From Herbiconiux sp. (GTDB taxonomy: Bacteria; Actinomycetota; Actinomycetes; Actinomycetales; Microbacteriaceae): a DNA stretch of 64,000 bases. Shown here piece by piece: positions 3,081 to 10,314 of the stretch. The notes beneath the pieces were generated by a model. The model saw only the letters and a program-made list of their open reading frames with translations, did no database searches and was not told the origin of the DNA. The DNA is taken from the NCBI RefSeq assembly GCF_023264895.1, contig NZ_JAHFUY010000021.1:1-64000 (forward strand), read 5' to 3'. Numbering within the stretch: position 1 is the stretch's first letter; each line of letters opens with the position of its first letter. The position numbers and the translations under genes are program-made.

Positions 3081-3224
3081 TCAGCAGGGTGCGGGCGTGG
3101 GGCGCGACGGGTCTTCCGAGGCGGGCTGCGGGCCGCAGCAGGTGCAGTACACGAACTGGCCGAGAACCATCATCTCGCCGTCGGGGCAGCTGCTGCACCG
3201 TGAGTTGAGCTTGATGGGTTCCAC
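3081..3224 (-). CDS. Small zinc-ribbon-like protein
   Basis: A 47-residue protein with CSSCPDGEMMVLGQFVYCTCCG, a CxxC plus CxCC pattern that could form a small zinc ribbon. I prefer a GTG start at 3222-3224. The longer frame starts with TTG at 3308 and would overlap the upstream gene. Support is the cysteine pattern and a TAGG sequence a little upstream, both weak. It lies downstream of the small membrane protein gene on the same strand. Function unknown; it could also be non-coding. Confidence 0.45.
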   Translation of the reverse strand: MEPIKLNSRCSSCPDGEMMVLGQFVYCTCCGPQPASEDPSRPTPAPC

Positions 3225-3304
3225 CCTGAGGAACCTACCCGGAGACGACAGCCCGTGGGGAAAGACAAGGTCTTGTCCCAGACGGGCCCGGATCCGGCTG
3301 CCGC

Positions 3305-3667
3305 TCAAGCGCGGACGTGCACCTCGCGGCCGACCACGCGCACGAGGGTGGCCCGGTGCCGGCTCGCGACCGTCTCGGCGATCCGGGTGAACGCGCGCTT
3401 GGCGCGGAGGCCCACGACGAAAGCCACGATCTCGACGACGATGATGACGGCGAACACCACGAGGATGACGGCGAACAGGGCGGGCGTCGTGGCGAGCGCG
3501 GAGCCGAAGATCGCCGCGCCGATCCCGACCGCGGCGGCCACGACCGCGCCGCCCGTGAGCATCGTCGACGCGGTGCGCCCGCGACCCGCGGCCTGCACGA
3601 CGTCGGGCATCGAGCTGTTGAGCGCTTCCGTGATTTCACGGCTCAGTCTCGCGTCGGATTCATCCAT
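3305..3667 (-). CDS. Small two-helix membrane protein
   Basis: A 120-residue protein with a short soluble N terminus, a hydrophobic alanine-rich segment at about 36-62, a second strongly hydrophobic segment at about 64-88 (ALFAVILVVFAVIIVVEIVA), and a basic C-terminal tail. It probably sits in the cytoplasmic membrane with both ends inside. GGAGG lies directly upstream of the ATG. It is transcribed divergently from the kaiC-like gene with 87 bases between them. No family recognised. Confidence 0.65.
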   Translation of the reverse strand: MDESDARLSREITEALNSSMPDVVQAAGRGRTASTMLTGGAVVAAAVGIGAAIFGSALATTPALFAVILVVFAVIIVVEIVAFVVGLRAKRAFTRIAETVASRHRATLVRVVGREVHVRA

Positions 3668-3754
3668 GCCTCCACTATGCCCGGCTCGGGGTGCTCGGCC
3701 GCAATAGGTTTCTCCGTCAGCTGTAGATAGTCTCTGTCGTGTGTACGGGGCCGC

Positions 3755-5494
3755 GTGTCAAGCCCCCTTGACGGACGGGGCAGCGTGGACGATCGCACCA
3801 TCACGACCGGGGTCACAGGGCTCGACCGCATCACCGGAGGCGGGCTCCCGCGGGGGCGGGTGATCAGCATCTTCGGCAGCGCCGGTGCCGGCAAGACCAT
3901 CCTGGGCCTGCAGATCCTCGCCCACAGGGTGAAGGAGTTCGGCGAGAAGGCCGTGCTGGTGAGCTTCGAGCAGACGGCGGAGGGCGTGCTCTCCGACGTC
4001 TCGGGCTTCTCCTGGGGGCGGGACGGGTTCTCGGACGACGAGCTCATCGTCCTGGAGACAGGCGTACCCGCCGACCTGCACGTGTCCGGCCAGTTCGACA
4101 TGCAGGGCCTGATCGCCACGCTGCTCGCCGTCACCGAGGAGTCCGGGGCGGAGATCGTGCTCCTCGACGGCCTCGACGCCCTGCTCTCACTGCTCCTCCG
4201 CGAGGAGGACGAACGGCGGGAGCTCCTCCGCCTCACCGACTGGGTGCGCATGCAGGGGCTCACCGTGCTCATCACCGCCAAGTCGAGCACCCAGCAGGAG
4301 CGCAGCCGCACGCGCGCGGAGATCCTCGACTTCCAGACCGACTGCGTGCTCGTGCTCGACCGCCCGCGATCCGGGAACGCCGTGTCACGCACGCTCCAGG
4401 TCACCAAGTACCGCGGCGCCGACCACAGCGGCCAGGTCTGCCCGGTGGTCATCACGGGCGACGGCATCGAGGTGCTGGCCGTGACCTCGCCCGCCTCGGC
4501 CACGACGGCCGACGAGCCCGTGACGCGGAGCTCGGACCGCCTGCCCACGGGGGTGGAGGGCATGGACGCCCTCCTCGGCGGCGGGTACCTCGTCGGCTCC
4601 CGAACCCTTCTCTCCGGCGCGCCCGGCACGGCGAAGAGCACGCTCGCGGCGGCGTTCTCCCTGGCCGTCGTCGAGCGGGGCGGCCGGGTGCTGTACGCGA
4701 GCTTCGACGAGGTCGCGGCCCAGATCGAGCTGCACATGCGGACGGTCGGCTACGGCTTCCGGGAGCACCTCGACAGCGGCAGCATCAGCATCGTGGAGCT
4801 GTCCGGTGCCGAGGGGACGCCCGAGGAGGCGGTGCTGCGCATCCTCCGTGGCGTCGACGAGATCGACGCGACCGCGCTCATCATCGATCCGATCTCCGCC
4901 ATCACCGGATCCGGACGGCTCTTCTCCGAGGAGGCCATCGCCTACCTGCTCTCCGCCCTCGGGCATCGCGGCGTGACCGTTCTGCTCACCTCCCTGCTCA
5001 CCGGGCAGGCGAGCCTCGAGAACGAGTCCACGCGGAGCCAGATCTCGACGATCGCCGACAACTGGATCCACCTGAGCTACATCGCCGCCGGCGGCGAGCG
5101 CAACCGCGCCCTCACCGTCGTGAAGTCTCGCGGATCCGCTCACACGAACCAGGTGCGGGAGCTCCTCATCTCGTCGAACGGCATCGAGCTGCGGCCCGCC
5201 TACTCCGCCGACGGCGACGTGCTGCTCGGCTCGGCCCGGGCGCAGAAGGAGGAGGCCGACCGCACCGCCGCCTGGCAGCGCGCGGTCGACTACGAGCAGG
5301 AGGAGGCTCTGCTGCTCGCCGCGGTGGCCGAGATGGAGGTGCGCGCCACGGGAATGCTGACCGAGGTGGAGCTGCGCCGAAGAGACCTCGAGCGCCTCCG
5401 GGCCGAACGCGCCGGAGTGCTCGAGCGCAGCGAGAACGCCGCGCAGGCGCGGATCGCCTCGCGGACACCGCAGGACGAGGGCGTCGCCGGATGA
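3755..5494 (+). CDS. kaiC: KaiC-like double-domain RecA-family ATPase
   Basis: A 579-residue protein with two tandem KaiC/RecA ATPase domains. Domain CI carries Walker A GSAGAGKT at 41-48 and a FEQ motif at 71-73, where cyanobacterial KaiC has a Glu pair. Domain CII carries Walker A GAPGTAKS at 288-295 and FDE at 317-319. The segment SQISTIAD (428-435) aligns with the KaiC region holding the autophosphorylated Ser431 and Thr432, and here Ser431 and Thr432 are both present. The C-terminal 80 residues are charged and helical (likely coiled coil) and replace the short KaiA-binding tail. The GTG at 3755 is used; a GTG at 3785 is an alternative, ten residues shorter. The kaiB-like gene follows with a four-base overlap. 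Family knowledge: KaiC homologs outside cyanobacteria can act in timing or stress responses. The role here is inferred only. Confidence 0.88.
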   Translation: MSSPLDGRGSVDDRTITTGVTGLDRITGGGLPRGRVISIFGSAGAGKTILGLQILAHRVKEFGEKAVLVSFEQTAEGVLSDVSGFSWGRDGFSDDELIVLETGVPADLHVSGQFDMQGLIATLLAVTEESGAEIVLLDGLDALLSLLLREEDERRELLRLTDWVRMQGLTVLITAKSSTQQERSRTRAEILDFQTDCVLVLDRPRSGNAVSRTLQVTKYRGADHSGQVCPVVITGDGIEVLAVTSPASATTADEPVTRSSDRLPTGVEGMDALLGGGYLVGSRTLLSGAPGTAKSTLAAAFSLAVVERGGRVLYASFDEVAAQIELHMRTVGYGFREHLDSGSISIVELSGAEGTPEEAVLRILRGVDEIDATALIIDPISAITGSGRLFSEEAIAYLLSALGHRGVTVLLTSLLTGQASLENESTRSQISTIADNWIHLSYIAAGGERNRALTVVKSRGSAHTNQVRELLISSNGIELRPAYSADGDVLLGSARAQKEEADRTAAWQRAVDYEQEEALLLAAVAEMEVRATGMLTEVELRRRDLERLRAERAGVLERSENAAQARIASRTPQDEGVAG

Positions 5495-5787
5495 GCGGGC
5501 CCGACCCGCGCAACCCGGATGCGGCGCTGACGCTGCTGGTGGCCGGCGACTCCCCGACGTCGGTCGCCGCCCAGGTCAACCTCGCCCGGCTGATCGAGTC
5601 GCGCCCTGCGCTCGGAGATTCCCTGCGCGTCATCGATGTGCTCGCCGAACCCCACCACGCCGCGCGGCACCGGGTGCTCTTCACGCCGACCCTGATCGTC
5701 TCCACGCCGGAGCGGGAGTTCCGTGTCGTCGGCGACCTCAGGGACACCGCGCCCCTGCGCTTCCTCCTCGGCGACGCTCCGCACTGA
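5491..5787 (+). CDS. kaiB: KaiB-like thioredoxin-fold protein
   Basis: A 98-residue KaiB family protein. Key features are the N-terminal strand LTLLVAGDSPTSVAA, NLARLIES, the central DVLAEPHHAARHRVLFTPTLIV with the TPTL element, and VVGDLRDTAPLRFLLG at the end. This matches the KaiB layout of about 90-105 residues. The start overlaps the kaiC-like stop (ATGA), so the two are translated as a coupled pair. In cyanobacteria KaiB refolds and binds phosphorylated KaiC. No KaiA, SasA or CikA gene is adjacent. The gene converges on the hydrolase gene at 5815 with a 27-base gap that contains repeated GGCCGGCC. Confidence 0.88.
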   Translation: MSGPDPRNPDAALTLLVAGDSPTSVAAQVNLARLIESRPALGDSLRVIDVLAEPHHAARHRVLFTPTLIVSTPEREFRVVGDLRDTAPLRFLLGDAPH

Positions 5788-5814
5788 GCCGACAGGGGCC
5801 GAGAGCGGCCGGCC

Positions 5815-6546
5815 TCAGTCGCGGCCGGCCTCGATGATCTTCTGGGCGAGCAGCACCGGGTTGGTGAACATGACCTCGTGGCTGCCGGGGAGCTGCACGA
5901 GCCGCGGGCCCTGGAGTCGCGACGACATGCGCGGATGCCACGCCCACTCCCCCGCCGGGAGCGCGATGTCCTCCGTGCCGTTGATGTAGCTCCGGCCGAC
6001 CGTGGGCAGGGCCGCGTAGAACCGGTCGAGCGGGAGCTTGTCGACGAACGGCTGGAACGGCTCGGTCGAGAGCAGGGCGTGGGTCGAGGTGGCGAACTCG
6101 AGGTCGGCATCCTGGATGAAGGCCTCGCGCCAGATCGGGAACGGCATGGGCACCGTGTTGTCGTCGGACGCGGCGGCAAGCTGCTCGAACAGGGCGCGGT
6201 AGTGCGGCGGCACCTCGTCGAGCAGGGAGTTGCCCGGGGCCGGCACGAACGCGTTCCAGAAGACCAGCCGCCGGATGCGCTCCGGGATCTCCTCGAACAC
6301 GCGCGCGATGATCGTTCCGCCGTAGCTGTGGCCGAGCAGCACGACGTCGTCGAGCCCCTCCCCCTCGATGTAGTCCACGATCGAGGCGACGCAGGCCGCG
6401 TGGTCGACGTTCTTGTCGACTCCGTTCCCGTGCCCGGCGACCGTGGGGGTGTGGACGGTCAGGCCGGCGGCCCGCAGCTCCGTGGCCACCGGCTCCCAGA
6501 GGCTGCCGTCGTGCCAGGATCCGTGGACGAGGACGTAGGTGGGCAT
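5815..6546 (-). CDS. Alpha/beta hydrolase, esterase family
   Basis: A 243-residue single-domain alpha/beta hydrolase. The N-terminal strand YVLVHGSWHDGSLWEP supplies the oxyanion HG region, and GHSYGG places the nucleophile at Ser74. The size and the HGSWHDG start resemble the methylesterase/hydroxynitrile lyase-like and salicylate-esterase-like group of small secondary-metabolite esterases; the substrate cannot be read from sequence. The start is the ATG at 6544-6546 with AAGGAG seven bases upstream, rather than the 15-residue longer frame. It is divergently transcribed from the AraC-family regulator, which is the most likely controller. Confidence 0.85.
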   Translation of the reverse strand: MPTYVLVHGSWHDGSLWEPVATELRAAGLTVHTPTVAGHGNGVDKNVDHAACVASIVDYIEGEGLDDVVLLGHSYGGTIIARVFEEIPERIRRLVFWNAFVPAPGNSLLDEVPPHYRALFEQLAAASDDNTVPMPFPIWREAFIQDADLEFATSTHALLSTEPFQPFVDKLPLDRFYAALPTVGRSYINGTEDIALPAGEWAWHPRMSSRLQGPRLVQLPGSHEVMFTNPVLLAQKIIEAGRD

Positions 6547-6743
6547 GCTGTCTCCTTCGGGTCGGTGTGGTGATGCCGATCGGTCGCGCATCCGTTGACT
6601 CCCCAGCCAAGCGGCCTCTACGATCGGCTCCTAGCCGGATCGCGCACGGCCGTGGCCGCCGACCGCCGAGTCGGCGGGTCGGCCGGCGCCCATCGCCCGA
6701 CGCCCATCGCCGGTCGCCCGGCGCCCGAGCGGAGAGGTGAGCG

Positions 6744-7691
6744 ATGCCGACACGGTTGGTGGACACCCGCGACATCGACGAGGCCAGGAGTCGCATCGCC
6801 GACGTCTACTGCGACCACCGCCTCGAGATCGACCGCCCCCGCCGGCGCTTCCACGCGGTGCAGACCGAGACGGTCTTTGGCCCCCTGGCCGTGCATCACC
6901 TGGCCTACGGGGCCGACGTCACGGCGCGGGCGCATCCGCTCGATTCGTGGGTTCTGGTGAGCACGCCCACGCGTGGGTCGCTCATGGTGCGACACGGGAG
7001 GGAGGAGATCCGCGTGGGGCGCGGGGAGGTGGCCGTGATCCCGCCCGATGCGCCGTTCACCCTGCTCTGGGAGGACGACTGCCGCCTGCGCACGGTGCGT
7101 CTCCGCCGCGAGGCGGTCGAGGGGGCGGCTGTGGCTGCAGGATGGCGCCCCGGCACCGCACTCCACTTCGATTCCGCTGCGGGGCGCGGTGGGACGGGGG
7201 CCGGCTGGAACCGGTTGATCGACTACGTGGCCCGTGGGCCGGCATCACCTCTGGCCGGTCCGTCGGCCGCGATCGACGAGACGCTGGAGCAGCACGTCGC
7301 GGCGACCCTCGTCGCCGGACTGGGTCTCCGCGGAACGGGCCTCGTCGATTCTCCGGCGGGTATCGCTCCTCGCCGGATCCGCGCTGTCGTCGATCACATG
7401 GTGGCGCATTCGGACCGTCACCTCAGCACGGAGGAGCTCGCGGCGGTCGCCCACGTGAGCCCGCGGGCTCTGCACGAGTCCTTCCGGCGCCACCTCGGCA
7501 CGACCCCCACCCTGCTGCTGCGCGACCTGCGCCTCGACCGGGCGCACGAGGTGCTGCTGGCGTCGCATCCGGATGACGGCACGTCGGTCGCCGCGGTCGC
7601 CCACCGCTGCGGCTTCGGCAACCTCGGCCGTTTCGCCCGCTGGTACGCCGACCGCTTCGCCGAGCTCCCCTCCCAGACCCTCGCCCGCTGA
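6744..7691 (+). CDS. AraC-family transcriptional regulator
   Basis: A 315-residue regulator. Residues 20-125 form an AraC-binding-like cupin region (RGSLMVRHGREEIRVGRGEVAVIPP). Residues about 213-312 hold the double helix-turn-helix AraC domain, with LSTEELAAVAHVSPRALHESFRRHLG in the first half and a canonical second half ending CGFGNLGRFARWYADRFAELPS. GGAGAGG precedes the ATG by about six bases. It is divergent from the alpha/beta hydrolase with a 197-base GC-rich spacer, suggesting local control of that gene. The effector is unknown. Confidence 0.88.
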   Translation: MPTRLVDTRDIDEARSRIADVYCDHRLEIDRPRRRFHAVQTETVFGPLAVHHLAYGADVTARAHPLDSWVLVSTPTRGSLMVRHGREEIRVGRGEVAVIPPDAPFTLLWEDDCRLRTVRLRREAVEGAAVAAGWRPGTALHFDSAAGRGGTGAGWNRLIDYVARGPASPLAGPSAAIDETLEQHVAATLVAGLGLRGTGLVDSPAGIAPRRIRAVVDHMVAHSDRHLSTEELAAVAHVSPRALHESFRRHLGTTPTLLLRDLRLDRAHEVLLASHPDDGTSVAAVAHRCGFGNLGRFARWYADRFAELPSQTLAR

Positions 7692-7783
7692 GCGGGCCCT
7701 CGGGCCGGGGTGGGCGCGCCGTCGGTCTGCTGTGCGGCCGGCGGCACGAGCGGCGGCCTGATCTTCTTGCCTCGGGAGTGGCT

Positions 7784-7813
7784 AAAACTTTACCTTACGT
7801 ACGGTATAGTTTT
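7784..7813. promoter_or_regulatory. 30-bp near-perfect palindrome, TetR operator overlapping a leaderless promoter
   Basis: The segment reads AAAACTTTACCTTACG followed by TACGGTATAGTTTT. It is self-complementary over 30 bases except for two mismatched pairs, and is centred between 7798 and 7799. A -10 hexamer TATAGT (7805-7810) lies inside its right arm, exactly six bases before the ATG at 7817. No Shine-Dalgarno sequence is present. Binding of the encoded TetR protein here would block the promoter of its own gene and of the SMR pair (inference). Confidence 0.75.
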
Positions 7814-7816
7814 GGC

Positions 7817-8362
7817 ATGCGATCCAGTTCCCTTCCCGACATCCTCGATGCCGCCATGCGCGTGCTCGACGCCGCCGACGGCGGTGACATCACCTACGAC
7901 TCGGTCGCGCGGGAGGCCGGTCTGACCAAGGCCGGCCTCATGTACCACTTCCCCTCGAAGGACGCGATGATGATCGCGATCATCGAGCACGTGATCGGCC
8001 GCTGGCAGAGCGAACTCCGAACCGCCCTGGGAGTGCCCCTCGAGGAGTCGACGCTGGAGCAGCGCGTCCGGGCCTTCGTGGAGTTCACCGGCACCGGCGG
8101 AGCCACTCCGGGCGAGTTCGCCGTCTTCTCCGAAGCGGTGCGCCGCCCGGCGCTGTCCGCACCCTGGCTCGAGTATCTGAAGACGTGGTTCGGGGTCGGC
8201 GACGGCAGCCTTCCGGATGCGACGCCGCTGCTCCTGGTCTGGCTGGCCGCCAACGGACTCTGGATCGCGGAGTCGACCGGCATCCTCACCGTCGACCGCA
8301 GCGGTCGCGAGGCGCTGGTGGCGGCCCTGCTCGCCATCCTGCCGAAGGAGGACGACCGATGA
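7817..8362 (+). CDS. TetR-family repressor of the paired SMR operon
   Basis: A 181-residue TetR protein. The N-terminal helix-turn-helix covers about residues 6-52 (ITYDSVAREAGLTKAGLMYHFPSKDAM), with the LMYHF variant of the usual TLYRHF. The C-terminal ligand domain resembles other TetR regulators of small multidrug transporters. I start it at ATG 7817 because a TATAGT hexamer ends six bases earlier, which fits a leaderless transcript. The longer GTG start at 7778 would put coding sequence across the operator palindrome. Its stop overlaps the next start (ATGA). Confidence 0.87.
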   Translation: MRSSSLPDILDAAMRVLDAADGGDITYDSVAREAGLTKAGLMYHFPSKDAMMIAIIEHVIGRWQSELRTALGVPLEESTLEQRVRAFVEFTGTGGATPGEFAVFSEAVRRPALSAPWLEYLKTWFGVGDGSLPDATPLLLVWLAANGLWIAESTGILTVDRSGREALVAALLAILPKEDDR

Positions 8363-8706
8363 GGAGATGGTTGATCCTCGCCGGCGCGATCGTGCTGGAG
8401 GTCACGGCGACGCTGTCGCTGCGCGCCGCGATCGACGCACCGTGGTGGGCGCTGCTCGCGGTCGTCGGCTACGGCGGAGCCTTCGTCGCGTTGTCGATGC
8501 TCCTGCGCCTCGGCACCCCGATCGGAGTCGTCTACGGCATCTGGGCGGCAGCAGGCGTGGCTCTGACCGCGGTGCTCGGCAGCATCGTCTTCGGCGAGCC
8601 GTTCACGTTCCTGATCGGGCTGGGCATCGCCGTGGTGATCGCGGGGGTGGTGCTCGTGGAGACAGGGCACGGGGCAGCCGTCGAGAGCGCGGGTGGCCGC
8701 TCGTGA
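8359..8706 (+). CDS. SMR-family efflux subunit, first of a pair
   Basis: A 115-residue four-helix small multidrug resistance protein. The essential membrane Glu is at position 14 in VLEVTATLSLRA. The third and fourth helices show the family pattern PIGVVYGIWAAAGVALTAVLG and GEPFTFLIGLGIAVVIAGV. It is fused head to tail with the TetR gene (ATGA) and the second SMR gene (GTGA). Paired SMR proteins such as EbrAB or YkkCD work as antiparallel heterodimers exchanging protons for cationic compounds or guanidinium-like metabolites. The substrate here is not known. Confidence 0.9.
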   Translation: MRRWLILAGAIVLEVTATLSLRAAIDAPWWALLAVVGYGGAFVALSMLLRLGTPIGVVYGIWAAAGVALTAVLGSIVFGEPFTFLIGLGIAVVIAGVVLVETGHGAAVESAGGRS

Positions 8707-9029
8707 CGTGGCTCCTGCTCGCTGCGGCGATCCTGCTGGAGGTCGCCGCCACCATGTCGCTCCGAGCCTCGGAGGGCCTCCGGAAGAAGCGCTGGATCGC
8801 TCCCGTCGCCGTCTTCTACCTGAGCGCGTTCGGCCTGCTGACCGTGACACTGGCGGCGGGGATGCCGGTCGGCATCGCGTATGGCATCTGGGCCGCCTGC
8901 GGCGTGGCCCTGACGGCGATCGGGGCGCGGGTCTTCTTCAAGGAGCGACTCACCTGGCGGATGGGCGCCGGCATCGTGCTCATCGCGATCGGCGTGCTCC
9001 TCATCGAACTGGGGAGCCAGGCGCACTAG
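8703..9029 (+). CDS. SMR-family efflux subunit, second of a pair
   Basis: A 108-residue SMR protein with Glu13 in ILLEVAATMSLRA and the conserved GIAYGIWAACGVALTAIGA helix. It starts with GTG at 8703, overlapping the previous stop by four bases. The KKRW and KERLTWR loops give it a different charge pattern from its partner, as expected when the two subunits insert in opposite topology. The TetR-SMR-SMR order predicts induced efflux of the TetR ligand. Confidence 0.9.
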   Translation: MTWLLLAAAILLEVAATMSLRASEGLRKKRWIAPVAVFYLSAFGLLTVTLAAGMPVGIAYGIWAACGVALTAIGARVFFKERLTWRMGAGIVLIAIGVLLIELGSQAH

Positions 9030-9072
9030 AGCGGCCGCGTGTGCACCCGGGTCGCGTCGCTACACTTCCCCC

Positions 9073-9657
9073 ATGAAGCGGGCACCTCTCATCGTCGGCG
9101 GCCTGGTGGCGGCGGCGCTCCTGGGCGCCGGCGTGGTGGTGCTGCAGCCGTGACTGCTGTTCAGCGATGTGCGGGTCGACGACGCGCTGCCGACAGCCCG
9201 CTCCGCTCAGCCGACCCCCGATCCCACCCCCGACCCGGCCCCCGCCACCACCGACCCGGACCCCGCGACGTCCGCCACACCGTCGCCCACCTCCGCGCCG
9301 GACCAGGTGCCGATCATCCTCGCCTCGAGCTCCTTCATCAGCCACGAGCACGCGACGACGGGCACCGCCACGGTCGTCGGGAATCCAGACGGCACGCGCG
9401 TGCTCGCGTTCGAGAGCCTCGACACCACCACTGGTCCGGACGTCCACGTCTGGCTGAGTGCCGCGGACGCGGTCGAGGGCTTCGACGGCTGGTTCCTGGC
9501 CGGCGGGGCCGACTACGTCGACCTCGGCGTCATCAAGGGGAATCAGGGTGACCAGGTCTACGACATCCCCGCCGATGTCGACCTGAGCCTCTATCGCAGC
9601 GTCTCGCTGTGGTGCGTTCAGTTCGGCGTATCATTCGGGGCCGCCCCGCTGGGGTAG
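9073..9657 (+). pseudogene. DM13-domain membrane-anchored protein interrupted by an in-frame stop
   Basis: The frame starts at ATG 9073 (MKRAPLIVGGLVAAALLGAG), giving one N-terminal membrane segment. It meets TGA at 9151-9153, codon 27, and then continues open to a TAG at 9655-9657. The continuation LLFSDVRVDDALP is what normally follows the membrane anchor, usually with Trp at the stop position, so TGG to TGA is the likely change. Downstream are a Pro/Thr/Asp-rich linker and a DM13 domain (about 120 residues, with LASSSFISHEHATTGTA, VHVWLSAAD and a final Cys-containing strand). DM13 domains are proposed redox or electron-transfer modules. An internal GTG at 9169 has no ribosome binding site. 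Readthrough, real decay or a base-call error are all possible. Confidence 0.75.
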
Positions 9658-9666
9658 CCGAGCCGG

Positions 9667-10314
9667 CTAGAACGCGAGGTCGGTGGCCCCGAGGGGCACG
9701 ATGAGGAGGCCGGTGATGCGGCCGGATCCGTTGTAGGCCACGCGGCCCGTCCAGTCCTGCTTCTCGTGCACGAGCCGGGTCTGGATCACCACGCCGCCCA
9801 CGAGGTGGCGGTTGAGGATCTTCTCGGCGATGGTGCGGCCGTCGAGGGTCGTGGCGACGAGGTCGGTGCACAGCTCGAACGGCCCGGCGCTCTTCTCGAG
9901 CTCGGCCCACACGCCCATGACCTTGCGCCTGGTGAGCTGGCGGGAGCAGGTGAAGGTCATGAGGGCCTTGACCGCGTCGAAGTCGCCGGCGGCCAGACTC
10001 GAGAACACGGTCGCGGTGCGTGCGTAGAGGTCGATCGCGGCCGGATCCGCGTCACCATTCGTGGGACTGTCGTCGGCGAGGCTGAACCTCTTGAAGGCGG
10101 CCTGCCTGGTCACACCCAGCGTGCGGCCGATGCTCTGCCACGAGACGCCGTGGGCGCGCGCCGCGGTCACGGCATCCTGAAGCTGCACCTGCGCCTCGCG
10201 CCCGAGCTCCTCGGCGAGCGAGACGGCCTCCAGCAGCACCCCGGTTTCGGGTTCGGCGGCCCGCGCCGTCTGCAGTCGCGCGGCGAGATCGCCGGCAGCA
10301 CGTGTCGATTCCAT
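9667..10314 (-). CDS. DNA-binding protein with DUF3887-like C-terminal domain
   Basis: A 215-residue protein. The N-terminal half contains a likely helix-turn-helix (VSWQSIGRTLGVTRQAAFKRF, about residues 58-78), a pattern common in actinobacterial proteins that choose regulators by Arg-rich HTH. The C-terminal half (about 95-215) has the small alpha+beta DUF3887-like layout (ATVFSSLAAGDFDAVKALM, then beta strands to the end). The ATG at 10312-10314 is chosen; a GTG two codons upstream is possible. No clear Shine-Dalgarno sequence is visible. The role is unknown, possibly a transcription factor. Confidence 0.7.
   Translation of the reverse strand: MESTRAAGDLAARLQTARAAEPETGVLLEAVSLAEELGREAQVQLQDAVTAARAHGVSWQSIGRTLGVTRQAAFKRFSLADDSPTNGDADPAAIDLYARTATVFSSLAAGDFDAVKALMTFTCSRQLTRRKVMGVWAELEKSAGPFELCTDLVATTLDGRTIAEKILNRHLVGGVVIQTRLVHEKQDWTGRVAYNGSGRITGLLIVPLGATDLAF

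Follow-up and report, generated by a model that had tools for sequence, protein, structure and literature searches.

Within the first 64,000 nucleotides of contig NZ_JAHFUY010000021.1 of Herbiconiux sp. (Microbacteriaceae; assembly GCF_023264895.1), hereafter the window, a kaiC gene is followed directly by kaiB. The kaiC open reading frame (ORF; 3755–5494, forward strand, GTG start) encodes 579 amino acids with two KaiC/RecA-like ATPase domains, CI (residues ~14–245) and CII (~258–493), and a C-terminal helical extension (~494–569), while kaiB (5491–5787, forward strand, ATG start) encodes 98 amino acids with a Pfam KaiB domain. The two frames overlap by four bases, ATGA, at 5491–5494. Pfam matches KaiC to PF06745 in two stretches (271 bits, E = 7.7e-81) and KaiB to PF07689 (44.8 bits against a cut-off of 27, E = 1e-11). 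With two ATPase domains in one chain, P-loops and the lysine/arginine (K/R) fingers, and an adjacent KaiB-domain gene, this is a real KaiBC pair, coupled as an original prediction from the DNA sequence had described it. Both proteins score below curated NCBIfam cut-offs (KaiC: NF006799, 373.9 of 408 bits, and TIGR02655, 183.5 of 546.25; KaiB: NF006798, 39.4 of 110 bits, and TIGR02654, 39.3 of 145.3), an early sign of divergence. The prediction had named a grouping with single-domain RadA-like ATPases as the result that would speak against it. No such grouping occurred, and a RadA/Sms-like or single-domain archaeal KaiC-like origin was rejected, as double-domain KaiC models score far higher (373.9 bits, against 56.5 for sms and at most 171.6 for KaiC_arch/thermo_KaiC).

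The GTG at 3755 is supported as the start because the N-terminal length (T18–G19 after M1) is equal in four aligned homologues from Agreia, a genus of the same family. An alternative in-frame GTG at 3785 is possible. Residue numbers, which the original prediction had tied to the GTG at 3755, would then shift by 10, but the alignment columns, including those of the phosphosites, would be unchanged.

KaiB is the only KaiB-domain protein encoded in the assembly (92% complete). The KaiA domain PF07688 was not found in the assembly, whereas the Synechococcus elongatus control was detected. Histidine-kinase-type ATPase domains gave 29 matches in the assembly and none on this 83.6-kb contig; there is no SasA- or CikA-type kinase nearby. 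The earlier remark on the missing kaiA, sasA and cikA is borne out, and the idea of a self-contained two-protein module is supported. The structural model of KaiB (mean predicted local distance difference test (pLDDT) score 70, against 52–55 for the other four models) has the element order beta-alpha-beta-alpha-beta-beta-alpha, which is that of the fold-switched, thioredoxin-like form, one state having been modelled. Its best fold match is 5jwr_B, a fold-switch-stabilised KaiB bound to KaiC CI, followed by Legionella KaiB (4kun) and the KaiB of Rhodobacter (Cereibacter) sphaeroides (KaiB-RS).

KaiC keeps its phosphosites amid altered catalytic columns

Residues were counted over 39 aligned KaiC rows, reduced from 42 by dropping L031–L033, which come from the same genomes as L041–L043; the fragments L046, L047, L049 and L051 were kept wherever they have letters. 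Six rows, from this strain and the Agreia group, form the lineage considered here, and 33 are other KaiCs. Counting from the GTG at 3755 puts the first residue of the motif STIAD at 431 and finds Thr426 in place. When the protein is aligned with S. elongatus KaiC, S431, T432 and T426 (loop at 5030–5050) fall on the phosphosite columns, as predicted for the first two, and the identical 431/432 numbering appears to be a coincidence of small indels, the columns being correct. The Ser-Thr dyad together with T426 is the combination of KaiC1, the S. elongatus type. All six members retain S431, T432 and T426, along with K294, the other P-loop lysine and the finger residues K218, R220, K457 and R459. 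The KaiC2 phosphosites are described as Ser-Ser (PMC5520375; PMC10076222). This pair was found in none of the six members, all Ser-Thr, whereas each of the 14 other long-tailed KaiCs has Ser at this second position, 432. The lineage does share with those proteins the KaiC2-type tryptophan W437 (5063–5065), found in 6/6 members, 14/14 other long-tailed KaiCs and 2/19 short-tailed ones, both of the latter in the KaiC2-type clade; it corresponds to W419 of R. sphaeroides KaiC (KaiC-RS), for which a role has been proposed (PMC10076222).

The ATP-handling residues are less well kept. The Walker A motif of CI, GSAGAGKT (residues 41–48; 3875–3898), is canonical. That of CII, GAPGTAKS (288–295; 4616–4639), has Ala in place of Gly293 before the lysine, so that only one of the two Walker A motifs first called intact is so; the five Agreia-group rows have Ser here, and 32 of the 33 other KaiCs have Gly (the exception, L034, has Ala). 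The FEQ of CI (F71-E72-Q73; 3965–3973) and the FDE of CII (F317-D318-E319; 4703–4711), noticed from the outset as oddities, are real and fixed in all six members. Q73 occupies the column of S. elongatus E78, which is described as coordinated to the Mg2+ ion (PMC2777353) and is Glu in all 29 other KaiCs having a letter there. K176 (4280–4282) occupies that of E183, near the gamma-phosphate, where its role is given as unclear (PMC2777353); Lys is found in 6/6 members and Glu in 30/33 others. L191-D192 (4325–4330) replace E197/E198, which are described as the CI counterparts of the phosphosites and are each Glu in 30/33 others. In CII, D318 takes the place of E318, the catalytic glutamate of the kinase, reported to activate the Ser/Thr hydroxyls; E318A and E318D were both arrhythmic in S. 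elongatus, E318A without phosphoryl transfer (PMC2777353). Asp is found here in 6/6 members and Glu in 32/33 others. The exception is a KaiC-like protein of a Sphingobium plasmid (L094), which also has FDE in CII, adjoins a hybrid histidine kinase and has no annotated kaiB in the stretch, a further and distantly related example of Asp in place of the catalytic Glu. Within the phosphosite loop, R427 stands where most other KaiCs carry Asp or Glu, and the acid is replaced by Arg, Lys or Asn across the lineage. Since D427A is described as having little consequence in S. elongatus (PMC2777353), this loss may matter little.

By these comparisons, the catalytic remodelling is broader than FEQ and FDE. 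Among 93 columns kept at ≥85% in the 33 other KaiCs, 28 are altered in all six members, against 1, 3, 2, 2 and 6 in five control groups of 1 to 4 rows apiece. As all six members sit on a single long stem, the count measures change along it, not six separate events.

A divergent relative of the KaiC2-type clade

In the whole-protein tree (35 rows, with L031–L033 and the fragments L046, L047, L049 and L051 left out), the six proteins group with the KaiC2-type clade, to which R. sphaeroides KaiC belongs, with branch support of 100/99 and a stem of 3.18 changes per site. Trees of the single domains, built without L015, L025, L028, L029, L094 and the fragments, place them on the same side (CI: 98/90, stem 3.52; CII: 100/97, stem 2.01). 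The lineage is sister to the KaiC2-type clade in the whole-protein and CI trees, and is joined to it without resolution inside the clade in the CII tree. None of the three trees groups it with S. elongatus KaiC. An approximately unbiased (AU) test rejects placing the lineage with the S. elongatus-side clade (p = 0.006), with the qualifications that the group was named after the tree had been seen and that long branches share the model's pull. With both domains on the same side, a cyanobacterial-type CII fused to a KaiC2-type CI was rejected. The closest solved structures are those of R. sphaeroides KaiC (8db3, 8dba; E ~2e-78), then a KaiC chain 8zn5 (7e-63) and 1tf7 of the S. elongatus type (7e-49).

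Because the whole-protein, CI and CII trees all join the KaiC2-type clade, the Ser-Thr dyad would not make this a cyanobacterial-type KaiC, and the weight first given to it as the key cue was misleading: the clade it joins is mostly long-tailed and Ser-Ser. We interpret the protein as a divergent relative of the KaiA-free, R. sphaeroides-like KaiC2 lineage, probably not a cyanobacterial-type clock component, in which the Ser-Thr dyad would either have been regained or date back to a time before the Ser-Ser state.

The C-terminal extension (residues 494–569; 5234–5461, forward strand), a predicted single helix, is the putative counterpart of the KaiC-RS coiled-coil tail. From column 494 it runs for 86 residues here, 90–97 in Agreia and 91 in KaiC-RS, where about 50 residues are described as forming a 12-helix coiled coil that links two hexamers (PMC10076222). 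The original prediction was right that the tail is a long charged helix. Such a helix had been thought odd, but it is to be expected in the KaiC2-type clade, where R. sphaeroides KaiC builds its coiled coil from this extension. The AlphaFold model of KaiC, from a five-row alignment, has block means mostly of 60–81 in the tail and is too weak to place active-site residues. A test of heptad periodicity had no power, shuffles reaching the observed value in 0.94 of cases for the window, 0.53 for Agreia and 0.71 for KaiC-RS, the positive control.

A narrow distribution in Microbacteriaceae and purifying selection

Among 16 genomes of the genus, KaiC is found in this one and is absent from the other 15 (E 1e-30). 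Of 299 genomes drawn from the family, five have KaiB: this one and four of the Agreia group. A collection of one genome per species (84,980 species) yielded four loci, in A. pratensis, A. bicolorata, Agreia sp. Leaf210 and sp. VKM Ac-1783, in a scan with two exact peptide patterns that could miss intermediates. At E 1e-40, a profile of the lineage matched 2 of 396 genomes of the order (this one and a partial match), and KaiC matched 18 of 396 in the phylum including this one, the next best being 36% identical. KaiC identity is 68.7–71.4% to four Agreia-group proteins and 33–37% to seven other actinobacterial KaiCs. What seems to be new is the lineage itself, which has remodelled active sites, sits at the end of a very long stem and was seen in Agreia and in one of 16 genomes of this genus. 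No report of this KaiBC lineage was found in searches of an open-licence library, subscription papers and supplements being outside that scope; one paper on Microbacteriaceae describes two freshwater strains as lacking Kai homologues.

Neither reading frame is disrupted, and all four named Agreia loci keep the ATGA overlap. Over the 15 pairs of six members, the ratio of nonsynonymous to synonymous divergence (dN/dS) is 0.07–0.29 for kaiC and 0.08–0.58 for kaiB, and this strain against the Agreia group gives 0.21–0.29 and 0.42–0.58, respectively. Given this purifying selection, the pair appears to be in use. Synonymous divergence (dS) from the Agreia group is 0.85–1.11 for kaiC and 0.73–0.91 for recA and a second gene, of family PF00986; a recent transfer from sampled Agreia is not supported, as the kaiC values are not below those of the two reference genes. 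The G+C content points neither towards nor away from acquisition: it is 0.714 in the kaiBC pair and 0.711 in segment 3254–9668, compared with 0.708 on the downstream side as far as 20 kb, 0.662 on the upstream side and 0.685 across the window. The distribution may reflect gain from an unsampled relative or repeated loss.

Discussion

From the gene pair, its residues, its tree position and the selection on it, we propose that KaiC and KaiB form a two-protein module of the KaiA-free lineage that would act as a nucleotide-state switch with retuned catalysis, a proposal for which we see about equal chances of being right and wrong. KaiC would form a hexamer, and probably a tail-to-tail double hexamer through the C-terminal helices. 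CII would phosphorylate Ser431 and Thr432 slowly and without KaiA; CI would bind nucleotide, and its ADP state would recruit thioredoxin-fold KaiB, which, once bound, would favour dephosphorylated KaiC. With a KaiA-independent CII kinase and KaiB recruited by the ADP state of CI, phosphorylation would follow the cellular ATP-to-ADP ratio, like an hourglass or an energy-state switch. Catalysis would have been retuned in this lineage, most likely attenuated, because two of the three active-site acids of CI are gone and Asp replaces the catalytic Glu of CII. Judged by these residues, the module may sense energy as a switch that is unusually slow or poor in hydrolysis, and not be a clock.

The closest precedent is the R. 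sphaeroides system (PDB 8DBA, 8DB3, 8FWI, 8FWJ; PMC10076222), in which KaiC-RS is described as autophosphorylating without KaiA, and the ATP-to-ADP ratio as driving KaiBC-RS as an hourglass. In both systems kaiB follows kaiC, KaiA is absent, and KaiC has two domains, a long C-terminal extension and a Trp six residues past the first phosphosite; KaiB, as modelled here, likewise has the thioredoxin-like bound form. They differ in that identity is only ~31–34%, the dyad is Ser-Thr here and Ser-Ser there, FEQ/FDE replace FEE/FEE, the CII Walker A of the window is GAPGTAKS, and the window has no downstream HWE histidine kinase. S. elongatus KaiC shares the two domains and has S431, T432, T426 and the fingers K457 and R459 at the same columns; unlike this assembly, its system has KaiA, its R385 and I437 are Gly and Trp here, its E78, E183, E197, E198 and E318 are all changed, and it lies on the opposite side of the tree. 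The KaiC2 proteins of Legionella pneumophila and Rhodopseudomonas palustris are described as KaiA-free and tied to stress response or adaptive growth (PMC5520375); Legionella KaiB 4kun is second among the fold matches of the KaiB model and matches KaiB at E = 5.4e-06.

Several points weigh against the proposed switch. The substitutions of E78, E183, E318 and Gly293 could inactivate one or both rings, and the mechanism of KaiC-RS may then not apply. Placement with the KaiC2-type clade is less sure because of the long stem, and a reduced tree with no outgroup, from which L015, L025, L028, L029, L094 and L095 were removed owing to the long branches of L025, L094 and L028, puts the lineage on the branch between the two clades. 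Thr stands at 432 where KaiC2 typically has Ser. The structural model of KaiC is poor (mean pLDDT 51.5), and neither the tail in the window nor the proven coiled coil of KaiC-RS passed the heptad test. Finally, there is no kinase on the contig, unlike the operons of four alphaproteobacterial plasmids in which kaiC-kaiB is followed by a histidine kinase, and no visible output.

A more specific version, which we advance tentatively and regard as possible, is a family-restricted KaiC that works as a sensor without a built-in ATPase timer. Here the normal gating by ATP hydrolysis in CI would have been lost (E78Q, E183K and the changed E197/E198), CII would work with a natural E318D base, and KaiB binding and S431/T432 phosphorylation would read ATP/ADP directly, by nucleotide exchange, the Ser-Thr dyad having been regained on a KaiC2 scaffold. 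CI ATPase activity is described as a possible pacemaker of the KaiC clock (PMC6712028).

The main rival takes the loss further. KaiC would be catalytically dead or nearly so, a nucleotide-binding scaffold that reports ATP/ADP as it binds or releases KaiB or some other partner, without cycling through phosphorylation; we judge this rather unlikely. Asp can act as a base, which counts against such a scaffold, and a scaffold needs no phosphosites, yet S431, T432 and T426 are fixed in 6/6 members together with the P-loop lysines and the K/R fingers. The changes of E78 to Gln and E183 to Lys in CI, and of E318 to Asp and the Walker A Gly to Ala or Ser in CII, each in 6/6, speak in its favour, as does the longer stem of CI than of CII (3.52 against 2.01), as if constraint on CI had been altered. 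E318D abolished the rhythm in S. elongatus, but the accessible text of the source states loss of phosphoryl transfer for E318A and not for E318D (PMC2777353).

The pair could also be a passenger that arrived recently, is marginal or is decaying, and whose function is not maintained in this strain, but this is improbable. In favour of such a passenger, the pair is absent from 15 other genomes of the genus, it belongs to a variable segment that a sister species lacks at the corresponding place, and kaiB has diverged more than kaiC (dN/dS 0.42–0.58 against the Agreia group). Set against this, both frames are intact, kaiC has a dN/dS of 0.21–0.29 against the Agreia group, its dS to that group is not below that of recA and the second reference gene, and the G+C content of the pair is 0.714 against 0.708 downstream and 0.662 upstream. 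Least probable by far is a true self-sustained or damped circadian oscillator, which the presence of S431, T432 and T426 would favour and which the absence of KaiA from the assembly, the KaiC2-type placement, the contig free of kinases, the arrhythmia of E318D in the cyanobacterial clock (PMC2777353) and the hourglass behaviour described for KaiBC-RS (PMC10076222) all oppose.

A natural lineage with changed CI ATPase and E318 residues, in which phosphosites and KaiB remain under selection, offers a test of which Kai functions need hydrolysis. The Ser-Thr dyad alone is no marker of cyanobacterial-type KaiC, and Agreia strains are indicated as non-photosynthetic hosts for work on KaiBC.

Surroundings of the pair and related loci

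The pair is flanked by a divergent ORF of 120 amino acids with no Pfam match and a convergent alpha/beta hydrolase. Five Agreia-group loci of 16–18 kb do not share the gene order seen around the pair here. Downstream of kaiB, the four named Agreia loci have a next shared gene that starts after ~130 to 910 bp and that, in A. bicolorata, belongs to the PAP2 superfamily.

Seven other actinobacterial KaiC2-type loci (L034–L040), the nearest clade in the tree, likewise have an adjacent kaiB, Trp at 437 and, in 5/7, a long tail. Unlike the KaiC of the window, theirs carry Ser at position 432 and EE in CI as well as CII. Two KaiB-like matches occur in 5/7 of these loci, and 6/7 have a signalling gene downstream on the same strand, encoding a PAS-histidine kinase (3), a GGDEF-EAL protein (2) or a PAS-SpoIIE protein (1); at the seventh, the single ORF tested had no Pfam match. 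At L036, L037, L038, L039 and L040, each with two KaiB-like matches, the varied downstream genes (PAS-histidine kinase, GGDEF-EAL, PAS-SpoIIE phosphatase) suggest that KaiBC is coupled to different signalling outputs.

The variable segment (3254–9668) comprises kaiBC, the hydrolase, AraC-type and TetR-type regulators, two small ORFs with no Pfam match and a DM13 protein. In the sister species, whose recA frame is 95% identical to that of this genome, the DNA matches 3081–3253 and then 9669 onward, with 70 bp between. Parts of the segment (the hydrolase with the AraC-type gene, and the TetR-type region) match other places in other congeners, and the locus is therefore a patchwork. Carriage by a phage was rejected, with only partial matches in three phage records and four short matches in viral contigs. 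So was carriage by a plasmid: relatives in 283 plasmid records are all below 60% identity, and the synteny of the contig with the sister species fits a resident place. Positions 1–206 recur identically, in reverse, where contig C100 of this assembly begins, probably an assembly joint. Upstream of the segment, 2500–2829 encodes a DUF7882 protein whose DNA matches dozens of places across the genus, several of them in this genome, and which looks like a member of a many-copy family.

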